Origin: Nitrospinota bacterium
GTDB lineage: Bacteria; JADFOP01
Length of the DNA: 64,000 nucleotides
Assembly: GCA_022562795.1 (NCBI GenBank)
Contig: JADFOP010000006.1
Coordinates: 1 to 64,000 of the forward strand
Direction of reading: 5' to 3'
Shown here: piece by piece, positions 3,971-40,595 of the stretch
How positions within the stretch are numbered: position 1 is the first letter of the stretch
Layout: each line of letters begins with the position of its first letter
The notes under the pieces: model-generated
The model's database searches: none
What the model was told of the DNA's origin: nothing
What the model saw: the letters and a program-made list of their open reading frames with translations, nothing else
Position numbers and translations under genes: made by a program

Positions 3971-4091
3971 GATGTGGGGGTAATACTTTAGAGAATAATT
4001 CTTCGCGCCTGCACCTCTGATCTGGGGATCCGCGGGGTTAAGCTGCACCGACCTTTCAACATCGAGAGTTCGACACGAAACGTGGGAGTTT

Positions 4092-7000
4092 ATGCGGCTC
4101 TTTAAAAAAACCCTCATTCTGGCAGGCGCCTTCATCGCTATCCTTGTCGTCGTGGTAGCAGCGACGGCGTTTTTGGTTTCAGATATTGACCGCTACAAGC
4201 CGGCCATAGAGGCGCGCCTATCGGAAGCCACCGGGATGGAGGTAACCATCGCCCACATCCGCTTCGGTATCCTCCGAGGCGTTGCCTTTGAAGGCCACGA
4301 CGTCATAATCAAGAACCCCCAGCATCCGAAATCCTACCTTACAATAAAAAAGCTGAGTTTAGCCCTAAAGACCATGCCTTTACTAAGCAAACAGGTTATC
4401 GTAAAACGCCTCCGATTGGATAGGCCTGTCCTGCATGTGTCCACTGGCCCGGACCCCCAGGAGGTAGAGATCAAATCGTTGTTCACGAAGATTCTTGGAC
4501 TAGCTTCTCAGGCGGCTGAGCATGGGTTTTACTTCGAAGCTCGATCGGCGACGATTAAAGGTGGAGAGGTTCTCTTCTACGACGCTGAGGGTCAAGAAAC
4601 CGTCCTGGCCCACTTTAGGGACCTGGCAGTTAAGCTCTCAGGCCTCAAGACAATGGCTCCCACCCGGTACGCCCTATCCGGCCGACTCCTCTATAAGGAC
4701 AACTCAATGTCCTTCAACCTAAACGGGGTGACCAACGACTTGCCAGTCCGGTTTGACCCTGCCCTTGTATCAGTTGAAGGGACGGGTAGTATTCAGAATG
4801 TTCCAGGCCGATTGGTCAAAAGCTACTTGATGCCCCACGGGCCGGTGCAGGCCTTGGAGGGAACGTTCGACATCAGTACTACTTATCGAGGTAACCTGGG
4901 AGGCGGCATTGACGCAGAGGGCTACTGTCATTTTACCTCGCTCTACATCGATTATCCAAAGCTGTTCAAGGCCCCTCTTAAAGCCGACCAGGGGATTATC
5001 AACTACGCCCTAACCTTTAAGGATGATGACCTGAATGTCCATCGCTTCGAGATTGACTCTGAAGATGTAGCATTCAGGGGTTCTTTTTCCATTAACGATA
5101 TCACCTCCGGCAACGCCAAGTTCGCTGGCGAACTTTCCACCACTGCTATGTTGGCCAAGGACATCGTCCAGCTCCTTCCTTCCGGCTCCTCCCCAGAGGT
5201 AAAGGAGCTGGTCAAAGCCATGAATCCATCTGGCCAGATGGAAGTAAAACGCCTGGAGGTCAGTGGCCCCTTCCAAACCCTTCAAAGCGACAAGGAAATC
5301 GGTCCTATTGTGACTGCATCGGCCGACTTCGTGCTGAGGAATCTCGGCCTGACCTTCGGCCCCGACATGCCTCCCTTCAAAGACTGGATGGGGGAGATCA
5401 GTTACAACGGCCGAAAGGTCACCTTCCATGGGGTGGGGGGCCGTGTCGGTGAAGGGAGCCAGGTCGAGTCCCTGAACGGCACTATCCTAGATATAGCCAC
5501 GGAAAATCCCGTAGCCGACCTGACGATTGTAACCCGTCTTAAGGCGGGCGATTTTCGTAATCACATCCAAAGGTGGTTGAACAAAGAGTCCCCAATATTG
5601 TCAGAAGGGATCATCGTGGAAGGAGTCATGCACACCGACCTCTCCGTGGTCGGCCCCCTCAAGAGCCCGTCCAATCTGAACATCTCAGGAACTATCACCC
5701 TTGAGCGCATCTCAATCACCAATCCCTCTTCTGGGCTTAGCTTGCAGAATATTTCGGGAGTTCTAAGGGTAAAGCCAGACCGTATCGAGGTTGAAAATTT
5801 TACCATTTTTTACGGAGACCGCCCGATTCGCATCACTGGCAGTGTTCACAGCTATATGGAAGATGTTGTCAAGTTCAACGATATGACCGTTGACCTGGGT
5901 GAGGGGCTCCCGACTATAGAGAGCTTGCATGGTAGTCTCGACAAGCTCCAGCATTCGGTGGTTTTTGAGACCGACAAGCCCATAGCGTACCGCGATGGGC
6001 TCATGGAGGCCGTCCATGCCCGGATTTCCGACCTTAACACGGCCCCCCGTTTCGATCTCTACTTTAGGGGCGAGCTTCCCGCAAGCCAGGTATTTCAGCT
6101 GGCCACCTTGCTTTCCGTCTCCGATGAGCAGCGAAATCCCCTTCTTGAATCGCTTAGCGAAGCCTCGGGGAGAGTCGACCTGGCCCTCAACGCCTCTGGC
6201 CATCTGAGAAGCCTGCAGACCGAAACGACCTGGGCGGCACAGCTTTCCTTCGAGCAGATGACTTTCCCCCAGACACATCCTCTGGGCCGTATACGTTCCC
6301 TTTCGGGCATGCTCAATTTGACCCCCGACCTCCTTTCCATCATTACACTATCCGCCGCCATCGGGAAATCAGAAGTAACCCTCCACGGCTCAATCCAAGA
6401 CTACCTGGCCGACGAGCCCCTCGTCTCCTCCCTTACCGTGGAGTCATCGGGCCTCGAAATGGCCGATGCCCTAAGCCTTTTTGACTATCCCAAGGAGGAT
6501 TACGATGCAAGGGGCATCTTGACCGGTCACATCACTGCCTCGGGCCCTCTGCTCACTAGGCCCGATGCCACACGCTTTGACGGTTTGGTCAACCTCGCCA
6601 AGGGCTACCTCAACTTCGATCAAGTCCCTCCCCTTGAAGCCCTATCAGCTAAAATGAAATTTAAACAGGGCGAGGTGGTGCTCGAAGAGGCACGTTTCTT
6701 ATTCTTGGGCTCCCCGACCTCAGTCTCAGCCAACTTCAAGGGGTTTCGCAATCCCGTTATAACGGCACGCGCTCGCTTCGAGCATCTCGATTTAGACCGT
6801 TTGGCCCCGCCGCCGCTCGAGGGACAAAGCCCATGGCTACGGCTTTTCGACCGTGCCTTGGTCTTAAGCGAGCGCTCCCTCGATAATGACTTTTTACGCC
6901 GTTCCGCATTGAACCTCGAACTGGTGGTTGAGCGGGGCACCTTCCAGTCATCTACCTTCGGACCCCTAGCGAGCAAGGCGGTGCTCAAGAATCAAAGACT

Positions 7001-7790
7001 GACGGTGGAGCAGGTTGAAATCAACACAGCCCTTGGATTTATGAAAGGCGAGGGGTATTTGAATTTTTCCGGAACCGAGCCGACGATATTCGGCCTGAGA
7101 GGCGCGCTTCTTGATGCCGATGCGAAACGGATCGCTGAGACCTGGGGGCCTGACTGGGACGTGGTCACAGGGACTCTCAATGCAAGCACCAGCGTGCAGT
7201 GCTACGAGGAAGGATTAGACAGGGGCCTGTTGGGGTGCGTCCATGGCCATCTCTTGGTCCGACTGAATGACGGATACGTCCGAAAGACGGGTGTCATCGA
7301 GCCGTTGGCCGAGAAGCTCCAGTTTTCTAAGAGCTTCAAGCGGACCAGACGAGATACGGTGCCGGTCTTGCGCTATAAAACCATATTAGGAGACTTCGTC
7401 CTAAACGAGGGGCTACTTACCACCAACAATTTCGCCATTAATGGCTCAAAGATTAAGATTGCGACCGACGGCCAAGTCAACCTGTTCCACGACACTATGG
7501 ACCTCAAGGTGAGCGTATTGACCTACAACGCTATAAACCAAATCGTCCACAATATTCCAATCCTTAATCTCTTCGCAGAGGACAATAAAAGCCTCGTTGC
7601 GAGCTACTATGAGGTATCGGGCGGTGTTGGAGAGCCCCAGGTAATCTCCATTCCCAACAAGTCGATGGAAATGACACTCATCCGAACTTTCCATAAAATC
7701 TTCAAAGTGCCCCAGCGCATTATCATGGCGCCGATCGACCTTTTTAATCATCTCCCACCTCTAGGGAAGTCTTCCACCCGTTCTGATTAA
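4092..7790 (+). CDS. AsmA-family inner-membrane-anchored giant protein
   Basis: 1232 residues. The N-terminus is KK followed by one membrane helix (about 7-30, LILAGAFIAILVVVVAATAFLV), then DIDRYKPAIEARLSEATGMEV, the typical opening of AsmA-like proteins. The rest is long beta-rich periplasmic sequence. The C-terminal part (about 1095-1215: LNEGLLTTNNFAINGSKIKI, later GGVGEPQVI) matches the AsmA C-terminal domain. AsmA/YhdP/TamB-like proteins are thought to bridge inner and outer membrane and move phospholipid or help outer-membrane assembly; which member this is cannot be told from sequence. GGGAG ends a few bases before the ATG. It is transcribed alone and faces the enoyl-CoA hydratase gene across a 138-base gap that shows no obvious terminator hairpin. 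Confidence 0.85.
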   Translation: MRLFKKTLILAGAFIAILVVVVAATAFLVSDIDRYKPAIEARLSEATGMEVTIAHIRFGILRGVAFEGHDVIIKNPQHPKSYLTIKKLSLALKTMPLLSKQVIVKRLRLDRPVLHVSTGPDPQEVEIKSLFTKILGLASQAAEHGFYFEARSATIKGGEVLFYDAEGQETVLAHFRDLAVKLSGLKTMAPTRYALSGRLLYKDNSMSFNLNGVTNDLPVRFDPALVSVEGTGSIQNVPGRLVKSYLMPHGPVQALEGTFDISTTYRGNLGGGIDAEGYCHFTSLYIDYPKLFKAPLKADQGIINYALTFKDDDLNVHRFEIDSEDVAFRGSFSINDITSGNAKFAGELSTTAMLAKDIVQLLPSGSSPEVKELVKAMNPSGQMEVKRLEVSGPFQTLQSDKEIGPIVTASADFVLRNLGLTFGPDMPPFKDWMGEISYNGRKVTFHGVGGRVGEGSQVESLNGTILDIATENPVADLTIVTRLKAGDFRNHIQRWLNKESPILSEGIIVEGVMHTDLSVVGPLKSPSNLNISGTITLERISITNPSSGLSLQNISGVLRVKPDRIEVENFTIFYGDRPIRITGSVHSYMEDVVKFNDMTVDLGEGLPTIESLHGSLDKLQHSVVFETDKPIAYRDGLMEAVHARISDLNTAPRFDLYFRGELPASQVFQLATLLSVSDEQRNPLLESLSEASGRVDLALNASGHLRSLQTETTWAAQLSFEQMTFPQTHPLGRIRSLSGMLNLTPDLLSIITLSAAIGKSEVTLHGSIQDYLADEPLVSSLTVESSGLEMADALSLFDYPKEDYDARGILTGHITASGPLLTRPDATRFDGLVNLAKGYLNFDQVPPLEALSAKMKFKQGEVVLEEARFLFLGSPTSVSANFKGFRNPVITARARFEHLDLDRLAPPPLEGQSPWLRLFDRALVLSERSLDNDFLRRSALNLELVVERGTFQSSTFGPLASKAVLKNQRLTVEQVEINTALGFMKGEGYLNFSGTEPTIFGLRGALLDADAKRIAETWGPDWDVVTGTLNASTSVQCYEEGLDRGLLGCVHGHLLVRLNDGYVRKTGVIEPLAEKLQFSKSFKRTRRDTVPVLRYKTILGDFVLNEGLLTTNNFAINGSKIKIATDGQVNLFHDTMDLKVSVLTYNAINQIVHNIPILNLFAEDNKSLVASYYEVSGGVGEPQVISIPNKSMEMTLIRTFHKIFKVPQRIIMAPIDLFNHLPPLGKSSTRSD

Positions 7791-7928
7791 TCTTAAAGAG
7801 CCTCACCCGGTGTAACCTCATAATAATCTGTTGTATACATCCCAATAATTAATGCATTACTTTATGTTATGTTTGCTGGGGCCAGGGCTACAGTACCCTC
7901 GGTAACCTCTGTCTAACCAAGTATCAAC

Positions 7929-8723
7929 TCATGCTCCGGTGAACTTGGGTTTACGTTTCTCGAGGAAGGCGCCAATCCCTTCGTGGATGTCATTGGTGGC
8001 CGCCGTCTGGGCGAATAGGCTGGCCTCAAGATTGAGCCCTTCGTCCACCGTCATGTTGAGCCCCCTGGTTACGCCCTCAAGGCTGGTGCGGACTGCCACG
8101 GGGGGCTTCTCGGCTATCGTCGCGGCGAGCTTTCTCGCTTCTTCCAGGAGGGAGTCGGGCGGGACGACGGCGTTTACGAGACCGATTTCCAAGGCCTCCT
8201 GGGCGGAAATCATCTCCCCGGTGAGAATCATCTTCAAGGCCCTTTTACGACCCACGAGACGCGCCAGGCGCTGGGTGCCGCCGAAACAGGGCGGGAAGCC
8301 GAGGTTGACCTCTGGCTGGCCGAAGCGGGCCGTCTCGCTTGCGATCGCCAGGGGCACGGCTTCGGTCATCTCGCAGCCCGCACCCAGGGCGTAGCCGTTA
8401 ACTGCCGCTATGATGGGCTTAGGGAAGCGCTCCATCCTGCTCAGGAGGCCCTGCCCTCTTCGGACGAACTCTCTGAGCGCCGGCTCGACCCCGGCCTTGA
8501 CGCTCTCGTAAAACTCACCAATATCCCCCCCGGCGATAAAGGCTTTATCACCGGCTCCCGTTATGATGAGCACCCGGACCTCTGGGTCGGCCTCGATCCG
8601 ATCGAGAAGTGCTGTGAGCTCATCCATGGTGGCATACGTCATGGCGTTCATCTTTTCGGGCCGGTTGATGGTAATGAGTCCGACTCCATCGGCGGCCTCG
8701 TAGAGCAAGGTTTCGGTAGTCAT
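7929..8723 (-). CDS. Enoyl-CoA hydratase/isomerase family protein
   Basis: 264 residues, the usual crotonase length. The oxyanion-hole segments are present (FIAGGDI, 62-68, and NGYALGAG, 109-116). Both catalytic glutamates of true hydratases appear to be kept: Glu118 in GCEM and Glu138 in GQPEVNLG. Two usual patterns differ: EAVPLAIAS replaces the common ACDIxIAS, and PPCFGGTQ replaces IPGFGGTQ, so substrate range may differ. The expected reaction is hydration of 2-trans-enoyl-CoA in fatty-acid or amino-acid breakdown. A strong AGGAGG lies 6 bases before the ATG. The gene stands alone, with 135 bases between it and the end of the M16 peptidase gene upstream. Confidence 0.9.
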   Translation of the reverse strand: MTTETLLYEAADGVGLITINRPEKMNAMTYATMDELTALLDRIEADPEVRVLIITGAGDKAFIAGGDIGEFYESVKAGVEPALREFVRRGQGLLSRMERFPKPIIAAVNGYALGAGCEMTEAVPLAIASETARFGQPEVNLGFPPCFGGTQRLARLVGRKRALKMILTGEMISAQEALEIGLVNAVVPPDSLLEEARKLAATIAEKPPVAVRTSLEGVTRGLNMTVDEGLNLEASLFAQTAATNDIHEGIGAFLEKRKPKFTGA

Positions 8724-8858
8724 AATGGCCTCCTCTTTCTCGTTAGAACACGATTAATTAGTTTAAGACTTCCAAGGTATCAAACATTTCATAGGAGCCC
8801 CAGGGGCCGGCCGGGTCCCTTTCGAAAGCGCATGTGTAATGGAGAATGGCTGCTCGGT

Positions 8859-11537
8859 CTACTGAGGGGGCTTGACCACCGCAAGGACGTAGCTCTCAAG
8901 GGTCAGGTACTGGCGGGCAACCCGTTGAAGGTCCTCGGATGTGACGGAGAGAATTTTTTCGGGATAGGTGCCGACATCCTCGTAACCGATACCGTAGAGC
9001 TCCATTAGTGCCAAACTCTCGGCCTGAGATGCGTTGGTCTGGTGGCGGAGCTCGTACCTTCCGACAATGGAGCGTTTGGCGGCCTCCAGCTCCTCAGCCC
9101 CTACGGGCTCTTCCACCAGGCGCTTAAGCTCCCGGCGGATTCCAGCCACGGCCTCCTTCAGTTTCTCCGGGCTCGTGCCGAGGTAGACGGCAATAAAACC
9201 CGGGTCGAGATTAGCTCTGGCAAAGCCCGTCAGAGCATAAGCCAGGCTGCGTTTGTCTCGAAGCTCAACGAAGAGCCGGCCGGTTTGGCCCGAGAGAACC
9301 CCCTCCAGCACATCGAGCGGATATCGTTCAGGCGAGTCCAGGCGCACACCGGGAAACCCAAGGAACACATGGGCTTGGCGTTTGGGTCTCTCCAGGGTTG
9401 CATTCTTTATAGTGCTGAGGCGGGCTAGGCCAGGGAACTCTGGTGGGGTGGAACTATTGCCTCCAAGGCCCCCAAAAAGCCGCTTGACGACCCCGCGTAC
9501 GGCTCCCGCTTTCACATCACCTACCACTGCCAAGACGAGATGTTTTGGCGCAAGGCTACTATTGTAAAACTGTAGGATGTCGCCACGGGTGAGTGAGCCG
9601 ATGGAGGCCTCCGTCCCCAAAGTATCCATGGCGTAGGGATGGCCGTCGTAGAGGGTTCGGCTGAAGAGCATGAGGGATTCGTGGAATAGGTCGTCGCGCC
9701 GCTGGGCAATGGCCGCCAAGGTCTCGGCTTTTTTCTTCTTCACCTCCTCAGGGTCGAAGGCGGGGGTGAGCATAGCCTCGGCCACCAAGTCCAAGCCCCG
9801 CTCCCAGTCCACGCTTAAGAACTCTGCGGCGAGCCCAAAGCTGTTGCGCCCGCTGAAGCCCTCCATGCGCCCCGCCGTGGACTCCACGGCCGCCGCCATC
9901 TCGGCGGCGGTGTGGTGAGCTGAGCCGTGGGTCAACAAGAGAGAGGTCAGGCGGCTAACGCCGTTGGTCTCGGAGGTCTCGTAACGCAGCCCCCCCATAA
10001 TGGCCGCCCTGATAGCCACCGTCGGCACTGCGTGGTTTTCTTTTACGAGCAATGTGAGACCGTTTTCGAAAACCGTCTTATTGACAGCGGCCTTCCGGGC
10101 CTCGGTATCGGCTGCGGCCTCTTCCATCGCCTTCATGGTTAGGCTTTCCAGGCGTGCCTCATCCACGTCGCTGGACGTCTCGTTCGGGAGCAACAATGCG
10201 ACAGTACAATTTGCTGGTTTCAGATAGCTCCTGGCCACCCGCTTGATATCGGCTGGGACGAGGGCTTTAACCCGATCGACGTACCTCTGCGCCGCTTTGA
10301 CGTCGCCCATCAGGCTCTCGAAATAGCCGAGGCTTCGGGCCTGACCCCGCATGGTCTCCTGGTCATAGACGAACTCGCTGACCAGGTTGATTTTGGCTCT
10401 GTCAAGCTCCTCACCGGTCGGGCCTTCATGGGCCACTCGGAAAAGCTCAGTCATGATGGAACCGAGAGCCATCTCCGCCTTAGCCGGATCGAGCACCGCC
10501 GTTGCAACCAGCAGCCCGGGGTCGCGGGGGGTGAGGGCGTAGCTTGAGACCTCGTGAACGAGCTGCCGGTCTTCCTTCACACGACGGAAGAGACGTGAGC
10601 TCTCGCCCTGGCCGAGTATGAAGGCCAAGGCATCGAGGGCGTGTGTCGAGGGGTCGCTCGCCCCGGGGATGTGAAAGGCGACGGCAAGGCGGGCTTTGGC
10701 GGCAGAGTATTTAAAAACCACACCCCGAAATCTTTCCTGCGGCGGCTCAATGGGAAGATCTCTAATGGGAGGCTCTCCCACAGGCCACCCCTTGGAGCCG
10801 AAATGAAGCTTTACCAATGCGGTGACAGCCGACACGTCGATGTCGCCTACGATGACGAGAAAAATGTTTTGTGGTCTGTACCACCGTTGGTAGAATGCCA
10901 TCAGCTCAGGCCTGGTAAAGGTCTTGAAAGTCTCCTCGTAGCCAATCACCGGCCGCCGATAGGGGTGGACCATGAATGCTCTTTCGGAAAGGCGCCGATA
11001 GACCTCTCGGGCGGGCCGATCCCTCGCGCGCTTAAACTCCTCGAGGATGACCTGGCTCTCTTTGCGCAACTCCTCCCCATCGAGGGTAGAGCGCTGTATG
11101 GCATCGGCGAGCACTTCCAGCCCCTCCGGAAGGTCTCGGCTGGCCATCTCGAGATGGTAGACGGTGTGGTCGTACGACGTGAAGGCGTTTATCGTCCCCC
11201 CGCGGGACTCGACAGCCCGAGCGACCTCCCCTAGCCCCCGGCGCTCCGTACCCTTAAAGAGCATGTGCTCGAGCACGTGAGCCATTCCCGCTTGGGCGTC
11301 TAGCTCTTGAGCGCTGCCTACTCGCACCCACGCCTGGATAGCTACGACGGGAGCGGCGTGGTTTTCCCGGAGGATGACTCTCAAACCATTTGGCAGGCTA
11401 AAGGTATGTAAATCAGAGAAGAGGCTCGTCTTTTGGGGTGAGGCATGAACAATGGGGGCAGTCAGGAGGAGCCCGGCGAAGAGTGCAACCGCCCACCCCG
11501 CAGCAAGAGACGATATAGGAGCTTGGTGCTTTTTCAT
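8859..11537 (-). CDS. Double-domain M16 zinc metallopeptidase (pitrilysin family), exported
   Basis: 892 residues from the ATG at 11537, which has GGAG 8 bases upstream and gives a clean signal peptide (MKKHQAPISS, then an Ala/Leu core to HAS). A GTG at 11558 would add seven residues with no good ribosome site. The first M16 half carries the inverted zinc motif HVLEH (His87, Glu90, His91) and the third ligand Glu167 in ESQVILEEF. The second half (from about 470, GLTLLVKENHAVPTVAIRA) repeats the fold but lacks HxxEH, as is normal for the inactive partner domain. The predicted product is a periplasmic peptidase. It follows htrA by about 40 bases in the lgt operon, so a shared role in envelope protein quality control is reasonable inference. 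Confidence 0.93.
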   Translation of the reverse strand: MKKHQAPISSLAAGWAVALFAGLLLTAPIVHASPQKTSLFSDLHTFSLPNGLRVILRENHAAPVVAIQAWVRVGSAQELDAQAGMAHVLEHMLFKGTERRGLGEVARAVESRGGTINAFTSYDHTVYHLEMASRDLPEGLEVLADAIQRSTLDGEELRKESQVILEEFKRARDRPAREVYRRLSERAFMVHPYRRPVIGYEETFKTFTRPELMAFYQRWYRPQNIFLVIVGDIDVSAVTALVKLHFGSKGWPVGEPPIRDLPIEPPQERFRGVVFKYSAAKARLAVAFHIPGASDPSTHALDALAFILGQGESSRLFRRVKEDRQLVHEVSSYALTPRDPGLLVATAVLDPAKAEMALGSIMTELFRVAHEGPTGEELDRAKINLVSEFVYDQETMRGQARSLGYFESLMGDVKAAQRYVDRVKALVPADIKRVARSYLKPANCTVALLLPNETSSDVDEARLESLTMKAMEEAAADTEARKAAVNKTVFENGLTLLVKENHAVPTVAIRAAIMGGLRYETSETNGVSRLTSLLLTHGSAHHTAAEMAAAVESTAGRMEGFSGRNSFGLAAEFLSVDWERGLDLVAEAMLTPAFDPEEVKKKKAETLAAIAQRRDDLFHESLMLFSRTLYDGHPYAMDTLGTEASIGSLTRGDILQFYNSSLAPKHLVLAVVGDVKAGAVRGVVKRLFGGLGGNSSTPPEFPGLARLSTIKNATLERPKRQAHVFLGFPGVRLDSPERYPLDVLEGVLSGQTGRLFVELRDKRSLAYALTGFARANLDPGFIAVYLGTSPEKLKEAVAGIRRELKRLVEEPVGAEELEAAKRSIVGRYELRHQTNASQAESLALMELYGIGYEDVGTYPEKILSVTSEDLQRVARQYLTLESYVLAVVKPPQ

Positions 11538-11578: not shown

Positions 11579-12951
<1,373 letters not shown>

Positions 12952-12952
<1 letters not shown>

Positions 12953-13581
12953 CACCGTTTCCTTTCAGAGACCTCGAGGGTAGATCTGCCCATTATTATG
13001 CCATATTGAGCTGGGGCCTCCACGAGTTTTTTCAGCGCATCGATCATCGATTGGTTGCTCCAGCTGCGGGCCCCCTCGGCCCGGCCGATCACGCGCCCTT
13101 GTCCGTCAATGAGGATCGAGGTAGGAACGACCCGTACGTTGTAACCCTCCGAGACCTCCCCCCATAGATCTAGGAGCACGGGGACCGACGGGGAGTACTC
13201 TTGGACGAAAGCCTCAATGGAAGGCTTTTGCGCGACATCGATAGCAACGGCGAGAACCGTAAAGGGCTCGGCATGCAATGCTCTCTGGAGCTTTCCCAGC
13301 TCCGCCACCTCAAAAGGCGCAGGGGGACTCCAGGTGGCCCAGAAATGGAGCAGGAGCAGGCGGCCCTTATAATCACCGAGGTCCGAAGTTTCTCCCTCTA
13401 TGGTGGAGAGGGCGAAGGGGGAAGCCTCTGTAGGCGGCATCACCGTCTCGAATCCCACCTCTTCGAGCAGTTTCCCTAGCGCTGACCCTTGCTCCTTGGC
13501 GTAGGCGGGAATCAAGGCGCAGAGGACAAGGACGAGAGCAAGGCAGGTCTTCAGGCGATGTCGGCCCTTTTGAGCTCCCAT
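12952..13581 (-). CDS. TlpA/AhpC-TSA-fold protein lacking the CxxC active site
   Basis: 209 residues. Signal peptide with KGRHRLK before a hydrophobic core ending at AYA (about 28). The thioredoxin-like fold is clear: LGDYKGRLLLLHFWATWSPP, then VLAVAIDV, VPVLLDLWG, and the cis-Pro region VVPTSILIDGQGRVIGRAEG. Where a TlpA protein has WCxxC, this one reads W84-S85-P86-P87-A88; both redox cysteines are gone and the DNA at about 13338-13350 is unambiguous. It therefore cannot work as a thiol reductase through this site; a binding or chaperone-like role is inferred. Its start overlaps the end of lgt by 31 bases and its stop overlaps the htrA start. Confidence 0.85.
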
Positions 13582-14333
13582 AGTCGCTCCTTCACAATAT
13601 AACCCCCAGCTAACGCTATGATCAGAAGGCTCACAACGTGCGCGGCCCTATATGGGCCCAACATCAGGCTGTCGGCCCGAAAAAAGCTTACGACATAGCG
13701 GCCCGTCGAGTATAGCACCAGGTAGAGAGAAAAGAGAAATCCGTCTTTGGCTGGCCGAAGCCGGAGGCGATACAAAAAAACAAATATCATTAGGTTCAAC
13801 ACCATCTCGTAGAGCATGGTTGGGTGGATGGGTATATGGGGAAACTCCTGACCCGCAATGCTATAGCCAGGAAAGATAACGCCCCACGGCATAGACGTCG
13901 GCACCCCGTGGGCATCGCCGTTCATGAAGTTGCCGAAGCGGCCGAAAGCCTGGCCCAAAATCAAGGTGGGGGCGGCTACGTCGCTCATGAGGAGAAATGG
14001 TAGGTTGTGGCGGCGGACAAACCACCACCCGGCAAGCACGCCCCCGGCAAGCCCCCCGTGGATGGCGAGCCCCCCGTGCCAGATGGCGGGGATTTCTTTC
14101 CAGTTCTGGCCGTAGAAATCCCAATTAAATGCCACGTAATAAGCTCGGGCCCCCAGTATCCCCGCAGCCACAGCAATGAGAACGAAATTTGCCACGTCGT
14201 CGTCGGTGATGGGAAGCCCTCGCCTCCTAACATCGCGCCTGACCAAGGCCAAGCCCACCAATATGGCGACGGCGTACATAAGGCCGTAGTAGCGAATGGT
14301 GAGGGGGCCGATCTGAATCAGAATCGGGTTCAT
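13551..14333 (-). CDS. lgt: Prolipoprotein diacylglyceryl transferase
   Basis: 260 residues, seven-helix inner-membrane enzyme. It moves the diacylglyceryl group of phosphatidylglycerol to the lipobox cysteine of prolipoproteins. Diagnostic blocks: HGGLAIHGG (about 88-96 from the GTG at 14339), the Lgt signature GRFGNFMNGDAHGVPT (about 132-147), and the late TGRYVVSFFR arginine motif. In the signature, Asp takes the place often held by Glu. The frame can start at GTG 14339 or ATG 14333; AGGTGA overlaps this spot, so the exact start is uncertain. At least six predicted lipoproteins or their signals appear in this window, so its substrates are all around. It is the first gene of the lgt/TlpA-like/htrA/M16 run. 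Confidence 0.95.
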   Translation of the reverse strand: MNPILIQIGPLTIRYYGLMYAVAILVGLALVRRDVRRRGLPITDDDVANFVLIAVAAGILGARAYYVAFNWDFYGQNWKEIPAIWHGGLAIHGGLAGGVLAGWWFVRRHNLPFLLMSDVAAPTLILGQAFGRFGNFMNGDAHGVPTSMPWGVIFPGYSIAGQEFPHIPIHPTMLYEMVLNLMIFVFLYRLRLRPAKDGFLFSLYLVLYSTGRYVVSFFRADSLMLGPYRAAHVVSLLIIALAGGYIVKERLWELKRADIA

Positions 14334-14440
14334 TCTCACCTGATTCGGTGTCGGGCGTTCTTAAGACCTACAAAGAAGACGCCCCCAGGTGGGCGGCGTG
14401 GCGGAAGTCCTGCAAGTTTAATTGTTCGTTAGCCGGCTGT

Positions 14441-15241
14441 TTAGACTTTTAATGGGCTCTCGGAGCGAACCTCAAAAAGCATATCCATAATTTCATCACT
14501 GTCGAGAGCCGTTACGGCGCAGACGAGCAAGCCTCCTTCGTGCCACATCAAAACATTATAGCCCTTGTACGTGTCGATGAAAAGGGCTCTTCCTTTAAAC
14601 ATGCGCTTGCGGGATGAGGCAGGCATAGGGGCGTGGCTATCCATAGCAATAAGGGATACCCGCCCCCCTTTCCAGCTATACTGTATGGAGGCGGCCTCCT
14701 CCCCATCCATCTTCATAAACCGCCCTCCGAGCAGCCCCAACTTGATTCGAGCGACCAAAGAGGGAGGCAGAAGGAATGAGGTGTGCTCGTTCAACCAACT
14801 CCAGAGCGCTTGCCGGTCTGATGTCATCATATCCGTTTTAGCAGTCGAAGAGAGCGATCGGCGATGGTCCGCCAGAATCAAGGCGTACATGGGCTCTTGA
14901 GCTTTAAAGAGACCGCCCGACCAGAGAATGACCCCTGCGACGAGGGCCGCTGCAGCCAGGCCAGCCGCAATGAGCCCATGGGGCCGGCCGCGTAGAAGCA
15001 GTGAAATGGGGGATCGTTCTTCCTGCCTGATTCCTTGGACGACCCGTTCTCTAAGTTGTAAGGAGACCTGAGGCCTGGGGGCCTCGCGAAGGGCCCGTTT
15101 GAGCTCCTCGAGCTCCTCCAATTGGGCCGAGCATGTGTGGCACGACTCCACGTGACGCTGCACGGCCGCAGCCTCTGAAGAGGAGAGCTCGTTATCGACA
15201 TAGGCGTCCAGGAGGTCTTGGACGTCGCTGCATTCCTTCAT
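14441..15241 (-). CDS. Anti-sigma-factor-like membrane protein with zinc finger
   Basis: 266 residues. The N-terminal zf-HC2 domain has the zinc pattern His30-x3-Cys34-x2-Cys37 (HVESCHTC), preceded by LLDAYVDNELSSSEA, typical of anti-sigma factors. One membrane helix at about 88-108 (PHGLIAAGLAAAALVAGVIL) places the finger in the cytoplasm and about 150 residues outside. The outer part resembles the C-terminal region of RsgI/ChrR-unrelated anti-sigma proteins only in general layout and I cannot name it. Such proteins hold an ECF sigma factor inactive, but no sigma gene lies next to it: the next gene upstream is the selenoprotein. It is 101 bases upstream of lgt. Confidence 0.8.
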   Translation of the reverse strand: MKECSDVQDLLDAYVDNELSSSEAAAVQRHVESCHTCSAQLEELEELKRALREAPRPQVSLQLRERVVQGIRQEERSPISLLLRGRPHGLIAAGLAAAALVAGVILWSGGLFKAQEPMYALILADHRRSLSSTAKTDMMTSDRQALWSWLNEHTSFLLPPSLVARIKLGLLGGRFMKMDGEEAASIQYSWKGGRVSLIAMDSHAPMPASSRKRMFKGRALFIDTYKGYNVLMWHEGGLLVCAVTALDSDEIMDMLFEVRSESPLKV

Positions 15242-15385: not shown

Positions 15386-16168
15386 TTACTTGTCTTCAGA
15401 TGAAATTAGGCTCTCAATTTCTGCTCTAAAACGAGAATAGGGATAAGCTCCCCGGATCACCTTATGGACCTTGATCGTCGGCTTGTTCGGCTCGGTCAGG
15501 CCGATGAAGAAGGTGGGGGTCCCTTTGACTCCGGCTTTCCCTCCGTCCGCGATATCCTTGCGGATCTCCGCCGTGTATTTTCCGTTAGCGAGACAGGGCT
15601 GAAATTTGCTGATATCCAACCCAAGGGCCTCGGCATGGCCCGATAAATCCTCCGGTCCCAGGGCCCTTTGGTTGGCAAAGAGCCGGGCGTGCATCTCCCA
15701 ATATTTGCCTTGCTCGGCGGAGCAGTTGGCGGCCTCGGCCGCTTTGAAGGCATTGGGGTGAAGTTGCTTAATCGGAAAATCCCGGAAAACGTACTTGACC
15801 TTGCCCGTCTCGATGTACTCCTTCTCGATCTTGGGCAACGTCTCACGGACGTGCCGGGCGCAAAACGGTCATTGGTAGTCTGAGAAATCGATGATGGTCA
15901 CCTCCGCGTTTTTTTCGCCCAGGAAGGGATCATCATCGACGCTGACGACGACGTTTTCCGGCTCTGGGGGTGGGATCGCCCCGACTCGTTGCAGGGCGGC
16001 TTTAATCTCCTTTAGCTCCTTCTCCGCCGTCTCCTGGCCTTTCTTAAGAGCCTCGACCTCTTTTTTAAGGGCCTCGATCTCACCACGGGGCTGTTCACAT
16101 CCGGATAGAGGAATAAGGAGGACCAGAAGACTCAGCCCAAGCACGACGGTGAGCAATCTATTCATCAT
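15386..16168 (-). CDS. DsbA-like selenocysteine lipoprotein (in-frame UGA = Sec100)
   Basis: 260 residues if the TGA at 15871-15869 is read as selenocysteine. Read as stop it leaves two useless halves. The ATG at 16168 (a second at 16165) gives a lipoprotein signal with lipobox LSGC (Cys24), a charged coiled coil (about 27-62), then a DsbA/Thioredoxin_4 domain: TIIDFSDYQ-U-PFCARHVRE puts Sec100 where the first Cys of CPFC belongs, with resolving Cys103; cis-Pro218 lies in GVKGTPTFFIG. The sequence stays in the same frame with intact family motifs on both sides of the TGA. A SECIS-like hairpin follows it. Expected role: thiol-disulfide exchange in the periplasm, anchored to a membrane. A plain nonsense mutation or base-call error is the alternative. 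selA/B/D are not in the window. Confidence 0.85.
15834..15871 (-). promoter_or_regulatory. Bacterial SECIS-like hairpin after the UGA codon
   Basis: The UGA is at 15871-15869. After 13 bases, GGCACGUC (15855-15848) pairs with GACG (15842-15839) and UGCC (15837-15834), with U15838 bulged and the loop CGUGA (15847-15843). The stem has 8 Watson-Crick pairs. The apical loop starts 22 nt after the UGA and has a G in its first two bases, as the published bacterial SECIS model requires; a bulged U is also a feature of the E. coli fdhF element, there on the other side of the stem. The hairpin lies inside the coding sequence, as expected in bacteria. Confidence 0.75.
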
Positions 16169-40372: not shown

Positions 40373-40435
40373 TGGCAGACAACACAACGCACACCGGTCA
40401 GCAGCGTCTCCCTCTGGACCGGCTCCGGTCACCTG

Positions 40436-40560
40436 CCACCTTCTCCCATCCCGACTCTCACGGTCGGCTCCGGAATTCCACCGGATCAACCCCGCTGGGA
40501 GTTAGCGGGGGTCGCGGGCTCTTGCCGCCGGTAGGGAATTTCGCCCTGCCCCGAAGGTGG
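40436..40560 (-). promoter_or_regulatory. FMN riboswitch (RFN element)
   Basis: The minus strand carries the conserved RFN blocks in order: CGGGGCAGGG, GAAATTCCCTACCGGCGG, AGCCCGCGA, then CCGGTGGAATTCCGGAGCCG and GATGGGAGAAGG. Stem P1 is CCACCTTC (40560-40553) with GAAGGTGG (40443-40436). FMN binding should favour the terminator hairpin ahead of ribD and shut down the operon. Confidence 0.95.
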
Positions 40561-40595
40561 TGTCTTATCCCTATGTTTACTACTTCTCTAGAATC

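Follow-up and report, generated by a model that had tools for sequence, protein, structure and literature searches.

Is the TGA that interrupts a DsbA-like gene on the minus strand of the window (the whole 64-kb stretch of DNA analyzed here) a stop codon, an error, or a codon for selenocysteine (Sec)? An earlier note on this DNA favored Sec, and we assign a probability of about 0.95 to the reading that 15386–16168 is a true selenoprotein gene, with a Sec-decoded UGA and an exported, probably lipidated product of the DsbA type that acts in thiol/disulfide exchange. The selenoprotein reading itself is almost certainly real, and it is supported computationally by how the gene is built, by conservation of the codon and continued constraint beyond the UGA, and by a SECIS hairpin, tRNA-Sec and selD, and the fold. 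The gene is a clean natural example of an envelope disulfide catalyst with Sec as its nucleophile, from a clade whose Sec and Cys forms interchange; strict annotation breaks genes of this kind into two halves. A 2026 review describes the functions of bioinformatically found selenoproteins of this sort as largely uncharacterized in its relevant passages (PMC13188914). The paired Sec and Cys orthologs of this clade could be used to test what Sec contributes to extracytoplasmic disulfide exchange.

One reading frame with a single internal stop

Positions 16168–15386 of the minus strand form one frame of 260 codons with a terminal TAA, in which the TGA at 15871–15869 is the only internal stop, just as expected from the earlier description of two same-frame halves joined only by a TGA. 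The upstream half ends in DFSDYQ and the downstream half begins PFCARHVRETLPKIEKEY, giving a read-through translation of ...TIIDFSDYQ-U-PFCARHVRETLPK... in which the TGA codon encodes predicted Sec100, the first residue of a U-P-F-C motif, and the codon at 15860–15862 encodes Cys103, the resolving cysteine. When the 260-residue read-through protein was searched against Pfam, Thioredoxin_4 (PF13462) matched residues 78–224 with an E-value of 1.5e-33 and DSBA (PF01323) matched at 4.9e-17, both across the UGA; the Thioredoxin_4 match of the downstream half by itself was 1.7e-20, compared to 1.5e-33 for the read-through protein. The protein thus has the features that define a DsbA-like/Thioredoxin_4 protein: Pfam scores above the gathering cut-off, a U/CxxC site, and a cis-Pro. 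The 64-kb window holds 13 in-frame TGAs flanked on either side by long open frames, and in our judgment only that at 15871–15869 connects two parts of a single protein family. At the other end of the gene, the second ATG (16165) may be the true start, because AAAGGG lies just 1 nt ahead of the first ATG.

The TGA is shared by orthologs from at least three lineages

We scanned the contigs of genomes for DsbA relatives and read the codon in the residue-100 column at the 80 loci recovered. TGA stands at this codon in L017, L019, both genes of L021, and L022; most of the other loci have TGC or TGT. L017 and G002:C541 are one and the same contig, from the only congener compared (G002), and its product is 65% identical to the window protein. 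A search of 396 genomes of Acidobacteriota, the phylum of G004, added ten distinct TGA orthologs (L125, L126, L127, L128, L132, L135, L139, L140, L141, and L142). In total, 16 distinct orthologs carry TGA at the Sec100 codon, in the same alignment column, and they come from at least three lineages: the same genus, Acidobacteriota, and Syntrophaceae. One homolog in the scan, in L032 (JAHFUJ010000162.1, near 3001), is joined in frame to a PAPYCASSEHS-like repeat tract that replaces its active-site half, perhaps by misassembly or repeat expansion.

Across all 144 gene copies extracted, the codon was TGA in 21 (a count that includes duplicates of the same gene and two paralogs of a second type, that of the DsbA gene on contig C14), TGC in 81, TGT in 39, and something else in 3. 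The non-TGA copies therefore have TGC or TGT in 120 of 123 cases and never TAA/TAG, TGG, or GGN; the three other codons, two GCA and one TAT, come from divergent or poorly aligned copies. The alignment of homologs proposed in the earlier note thus places Cys in this column, and the suggestion that the TGA replaces the first Cys of CPFC holds up. An in-frame UGA aligned with a conserved Cys of homologs is one of the marks of a bacterial selenoprotein. For genome-wide reassignment of TGA, for example to Trp or Gly, we found nothing in support; the aligned residue is Cys in homologs and never Trp or Gly, and a tRNA-Sec with a UCA anticodon is present, so we regard reassignment as extremely improbable.

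On a tree built from 89 domains, 6 changes are needed to explain the Sec label, and Cys genes are interspersed among the Sec genes. The Cys gene L123 sits beside the pair formed by the window gene and its congener, and L129, L134, L136, and L148 fall inside Sec groups. A phage tblastn search returned weak partial matches only.

The sequence after the TGA evolves as coding sequence

Compared to its congener ortholog, the window gene has dN/dS values of 0.29/1.03 upstream of the TGA (75 codons) and 0.18/0.95 downstream (155 codons), and the downstream differences number 27, 25, and 64 at codon positions 1, 2, and 3, respectively. The sister pairs L125/L126, L125/L128, L125/L132, and L141/L142 show the same pattern of constraint. 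This purifying selection downstream of the TGA indicates that the part after the stop is translated. In the TGA orthologs examined, the frame is open on either side of the TGA. Hence the signs of decay in related strains that would have spoken against Sec are missing, with purifying selection wherever it was measured; in the window gene, dN is lower than dS both before and after the TGA.

These data also bear on whether the TGA is a sequencing or assembly error, or the mark of an ordinary nonsense-mutated DsbA gene. The window does come from a single draft assembly, but the same TGA stands in 15 other distinct orthologs, the congener's included, and both the downstream constraint and the Sec-specific hairpin described below argue against such an origin, leaving it a negligible probability.

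A bSECIS hairpin follows the UGA in Sec genes

Comparative folding of the 16 TGA genes revealed a hairpin at +17 to +31 after the UGA in most of them. In the window gene its core, ACGUC-CGUGA-GACGU (15838–15852, minus strand), consists of a 5-bp stem and a 5-nt loop spaced 21 nt from the UGA; the CGUGA loop (15843–15847) starts at +22 and has G as its second base, followed by U. The bSECIS model, as given in passages of the 2026 review, calls for a loop of 3–9 nt, a stem of 4–16 bp, a G in the first two loop bases, and a distance of 16–37 nt from the UGA (PMC13188914), and the hairpin agrees with it on loop, stem, G position, and spacing, the features compared. When the first 80 nt were folded as a lone sequence, a different hairpin came out (z = −0.97), which was set aside in favor of the structure from the comparative fold. 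An Rfam search of 300 bp around the UGA gave chance matches only.

The hairpin is far commoner in Sec genes than in Cys genes. A contiguous stem of at least 4 bp is present in 14 of 16 Sec genes, with shortened stems in L021_0 and L141_0, versus 4 of 120 Cys genes (Fisher p = 8e-14, with no correction for shared ancestry). None of the 120 Cys genes has the loop sequence CGTGA, and CGT is the loop's Arg codon in 15 of 16 Sec genes versus 1 of the 17 Cys genes with Arg at that position. For the stem, 96% of cells are paired, compared to 15–43% when the partners are slid. Two compensatory pair changes were found, U-A for C-G in L021b and C-G for U-A in L140. The peptide across the L140 hairpin is altered as well, from VRET to AREV, so what was conserved is the pairing in the RNA, not the peptide.

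Selenocysteine machinery in the genome and its congener

The earlier note had asked for Sec machinery in the rest of the genome, and part of it is present in the assembly. The window's own genome (G000) encodes a tRNA-Sec (77.6 bits) with a TCA anticodon, which reads UGA; it shares flanks with the tRNA-Sec of the congener, which differs at 1 of 94 positions. G000 also has a Sec-type selD, whose product starts SHGGGUACKL and which contains its own in-frame TGA. This selD is split: the N-terminal part runs off contig C27 (G000:C27:1-696) and the C-terminal part lies at the end of C45, so Sec genes are poorly assembled in G000. On C45 the C-terminal part (G000:C45:15928-17041) shares one open frame with a PAS-type kinase, probably through chimeric assembly.

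A family search of the 97.1%-complete, 84-contig G000 assembly did not find selA or selB, and its contig ends and small contigs yielded neither gene. In the congener, selA and selB are adjacent (C277:5976-7343 and 7373-9259) and divergent from scpA, and a tRNA-Sec is present too. The region upstream of scpA in G000 (C34) holds other genes, and therefore selA/selB are not at the congener's location. These absences, from the assembly and from the equivalent location, are what one would expect of a recently dead selenoprotein, in which SelA/SelB have been lost and the UGA terminates translation to leave a 99-residue lipoprotein stub in a gene that still looks intact. Against that history, all three UGA genes (the window gene, selD, and a second DsbA gene on C14), the hairpins tested, and the tRNA-Sec are intact, and the split of selD across C27 and C45 shows that a Sec gene can be broken up in this assembly. 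We consider a dead gene very unlikely. Given the intact state of tRNA-Sec and of all three UGA genes, we infer that selA/selB lie in a gap of the G000 assembly, and we retain the functional selenoprotein as the preferred reading. Searches of G004 and G006, which both have TGA-DsbA genes, gave no tRNA-Sec and only tRNA-Ser-like best matches, likely due to incompleteness.

The second UGA-DsbA gene of G000 (L113, ~4000–5149; G000:C14:22639-23079 and just after) encodes a U-P-H-C motif, has its own hairpin at +22 with a GGUCCG loop, and is kept in the congener (L106 in G002). In G000 it overlaps a gene for a MauE/DoxX-family membrane protein (PF07291, 8.8e-22), a possible redox partner.

Architecture and relatives of the protein

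The protein is predicted to begin with a signal peptide (16097–16168, minus strand) that ends in a lipobox. By inspection, residues 21–24 (LSGC) after the hydrophobic signal match the lipoprotein pattern L-[ASTVI]-[GAS]-C, with Cys24 as the predicted lipidation site. For AlphaFold2 we used 31 sequences, from the window and the loci. The monomer model of the window protein has a mean pLDDT of 92.4 overall and comprises a signal helix, a helix of residues 28–61 (15986–16087), and then a DsbA-type domain, which Pfam, the model, and structural matches place at residues 78–257 (15398–15937). The helix is a probable coiled-coil, and orthologs have a similar helix sequence. Positions 100 and 103, Thr217, Pro218, and Trp157-Glu158-Met159 are invariant in the 31-row alignment; Thr217-Pro218 (15515–15520) form the cis-Pro loop. 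Both landmarks previously cited as intact, Cys24 in LSGC and cis-Pro218 in GTPTFF, are as described.

By sequence and fold, the closest solved structures are Wolbachia alpha-DsbA1 (3f4r), Bacillus BdbD (3eu3), and Corynebacterium DsbA/TsdA (4pwo, 7unn), the last with C. diphtheriae as a source among the best PDB matches. These proteins are ~23–30% identical to the window protein, which differs from them by Sec100 and by the N-terminal helix that follows its signal peptide. ScsC and BcfH (ranks 10, 20–21, and 29–32) also have a thioredoxin fold and can be aligned with most of the query, N-terminal helices included, at 18–22% identity. ScsC and BcfH are trimeric isomerases; the query was modeled as a monomer.

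DsbA-like selenoproteins as such have been known since 2005, and the window protein is a well-supported additional one. The earlier statement that Sec occurs in DsbA-type proteins agrees with relevant sections of the surveys of the Sargasso Sea in 2005, which reported DsbA-like UxxC selenoproteins (PMC1088965), and of the Global Ocean Sampling data in 2008, which reported DsbA 1–3 (PMC2398784); the 2026 review lists a 'DsbA-like protein form 1' (PMC13188914). As far as these sections describe them, the 'DsbA 1' and other DsbA-like UxxC selenoproteins share with the window protein a PF01323-type domain, Sec as the first residue of UxxC, widespread Cys homologs, and a SECIS just downstream, a likeness by description; neither a lipobox nor an N-terminal helix is mentioned in the same sections (PMC1088965, PMC2398784, PMC13188914).

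The further suggestion that a lipoprotein with a coiled-coil and Sec may be undescribed has lost ground. An existing NCBIfam entry, NF041057, is called Rcas_1661 family thioredoxin-like (seleno)lipoprotein, listed as DsbG-like in a section of the review (PMC13188914), which is likewise a thioredoxin-like lipoprotein with optional Sec and is the best NCBIfam match of the window protein (residues 42–223). The score of 134.7 bits falls below the cut-off of 190, and the window protein is therefore a relative of this equivalog rather than a member. In addition, the Nitrospirota Cys homologs L069 and L073–L076 have lipobox and helix together. Most TGA orthologs have the N-terminal helix and lack a lipobox; the sites in the congener and the others are mostly of the AxA/AQ type.

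Proposed function

In the thioredoxin superfamily, the first residue of CxxC acts as nucleophile, and redox behavior is tuned by the residue that precedes the cis-Pro. We propose that tRNA-Sec and SelB would decode UGA codon 100 as Sec, directed by the bSECIS inside the coding sequence 17–31 nt downstream. The product would be exported, probably lipidated at Cys24, and the N-terminal helix would hold the DsbA-type domain off the membrane. There, the protein may carry out thiol/disulfide exchange on exported proteins, Sec100 serving as the nucleophile and Cys103 resolving, with the cis-Pro of the thioredoxin fold (Thr-Pro218) expected to line the active site. In this scheme we infer actual Sec insertion, lipidation at Cys24, the direction of electron flow, and the substrates; oxidase and isomerase activity are about equally likely. 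A search of the protein's own genome for a VKOR partner found none. A more specific proposal strikes us as rather doubtful: that the protein is a seleno-disulfide isomerase of the cell envelope, anchored by lipid and oligomeric through its coiled-coil like ScsC, and that it represents the Sec form in a clade of helix-stalk DsbA proteins with several switches between Sec and Cys, with lipobox and Sec combined in this species.

The congener copy lies among other genes, including transporter-like genes and a glutamate-dehydrogenase-like gene; since the neighborhood differs, gene context offers no functional clue. In the window, the region downstream of the selenoprotein gene (11579–15241, minus strand) encodes a zf-HC2 (anti-sigma-like) protein, Lgt, a TlpA-like protein, and a trypsin/PDZ (HtrA-like) protease. 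Lgt is the enzyme that lipidates lipoproteins. In the TlpA/redoxin-like protein (12952–13581, minus strand), the usual CxxC site reads WSPPAP, so that neither active-site cysteine seems to remain. Elsewhere in the window, an FMN riboswitch was detected at 40434–40562 (minus strand, 114.1 bits).
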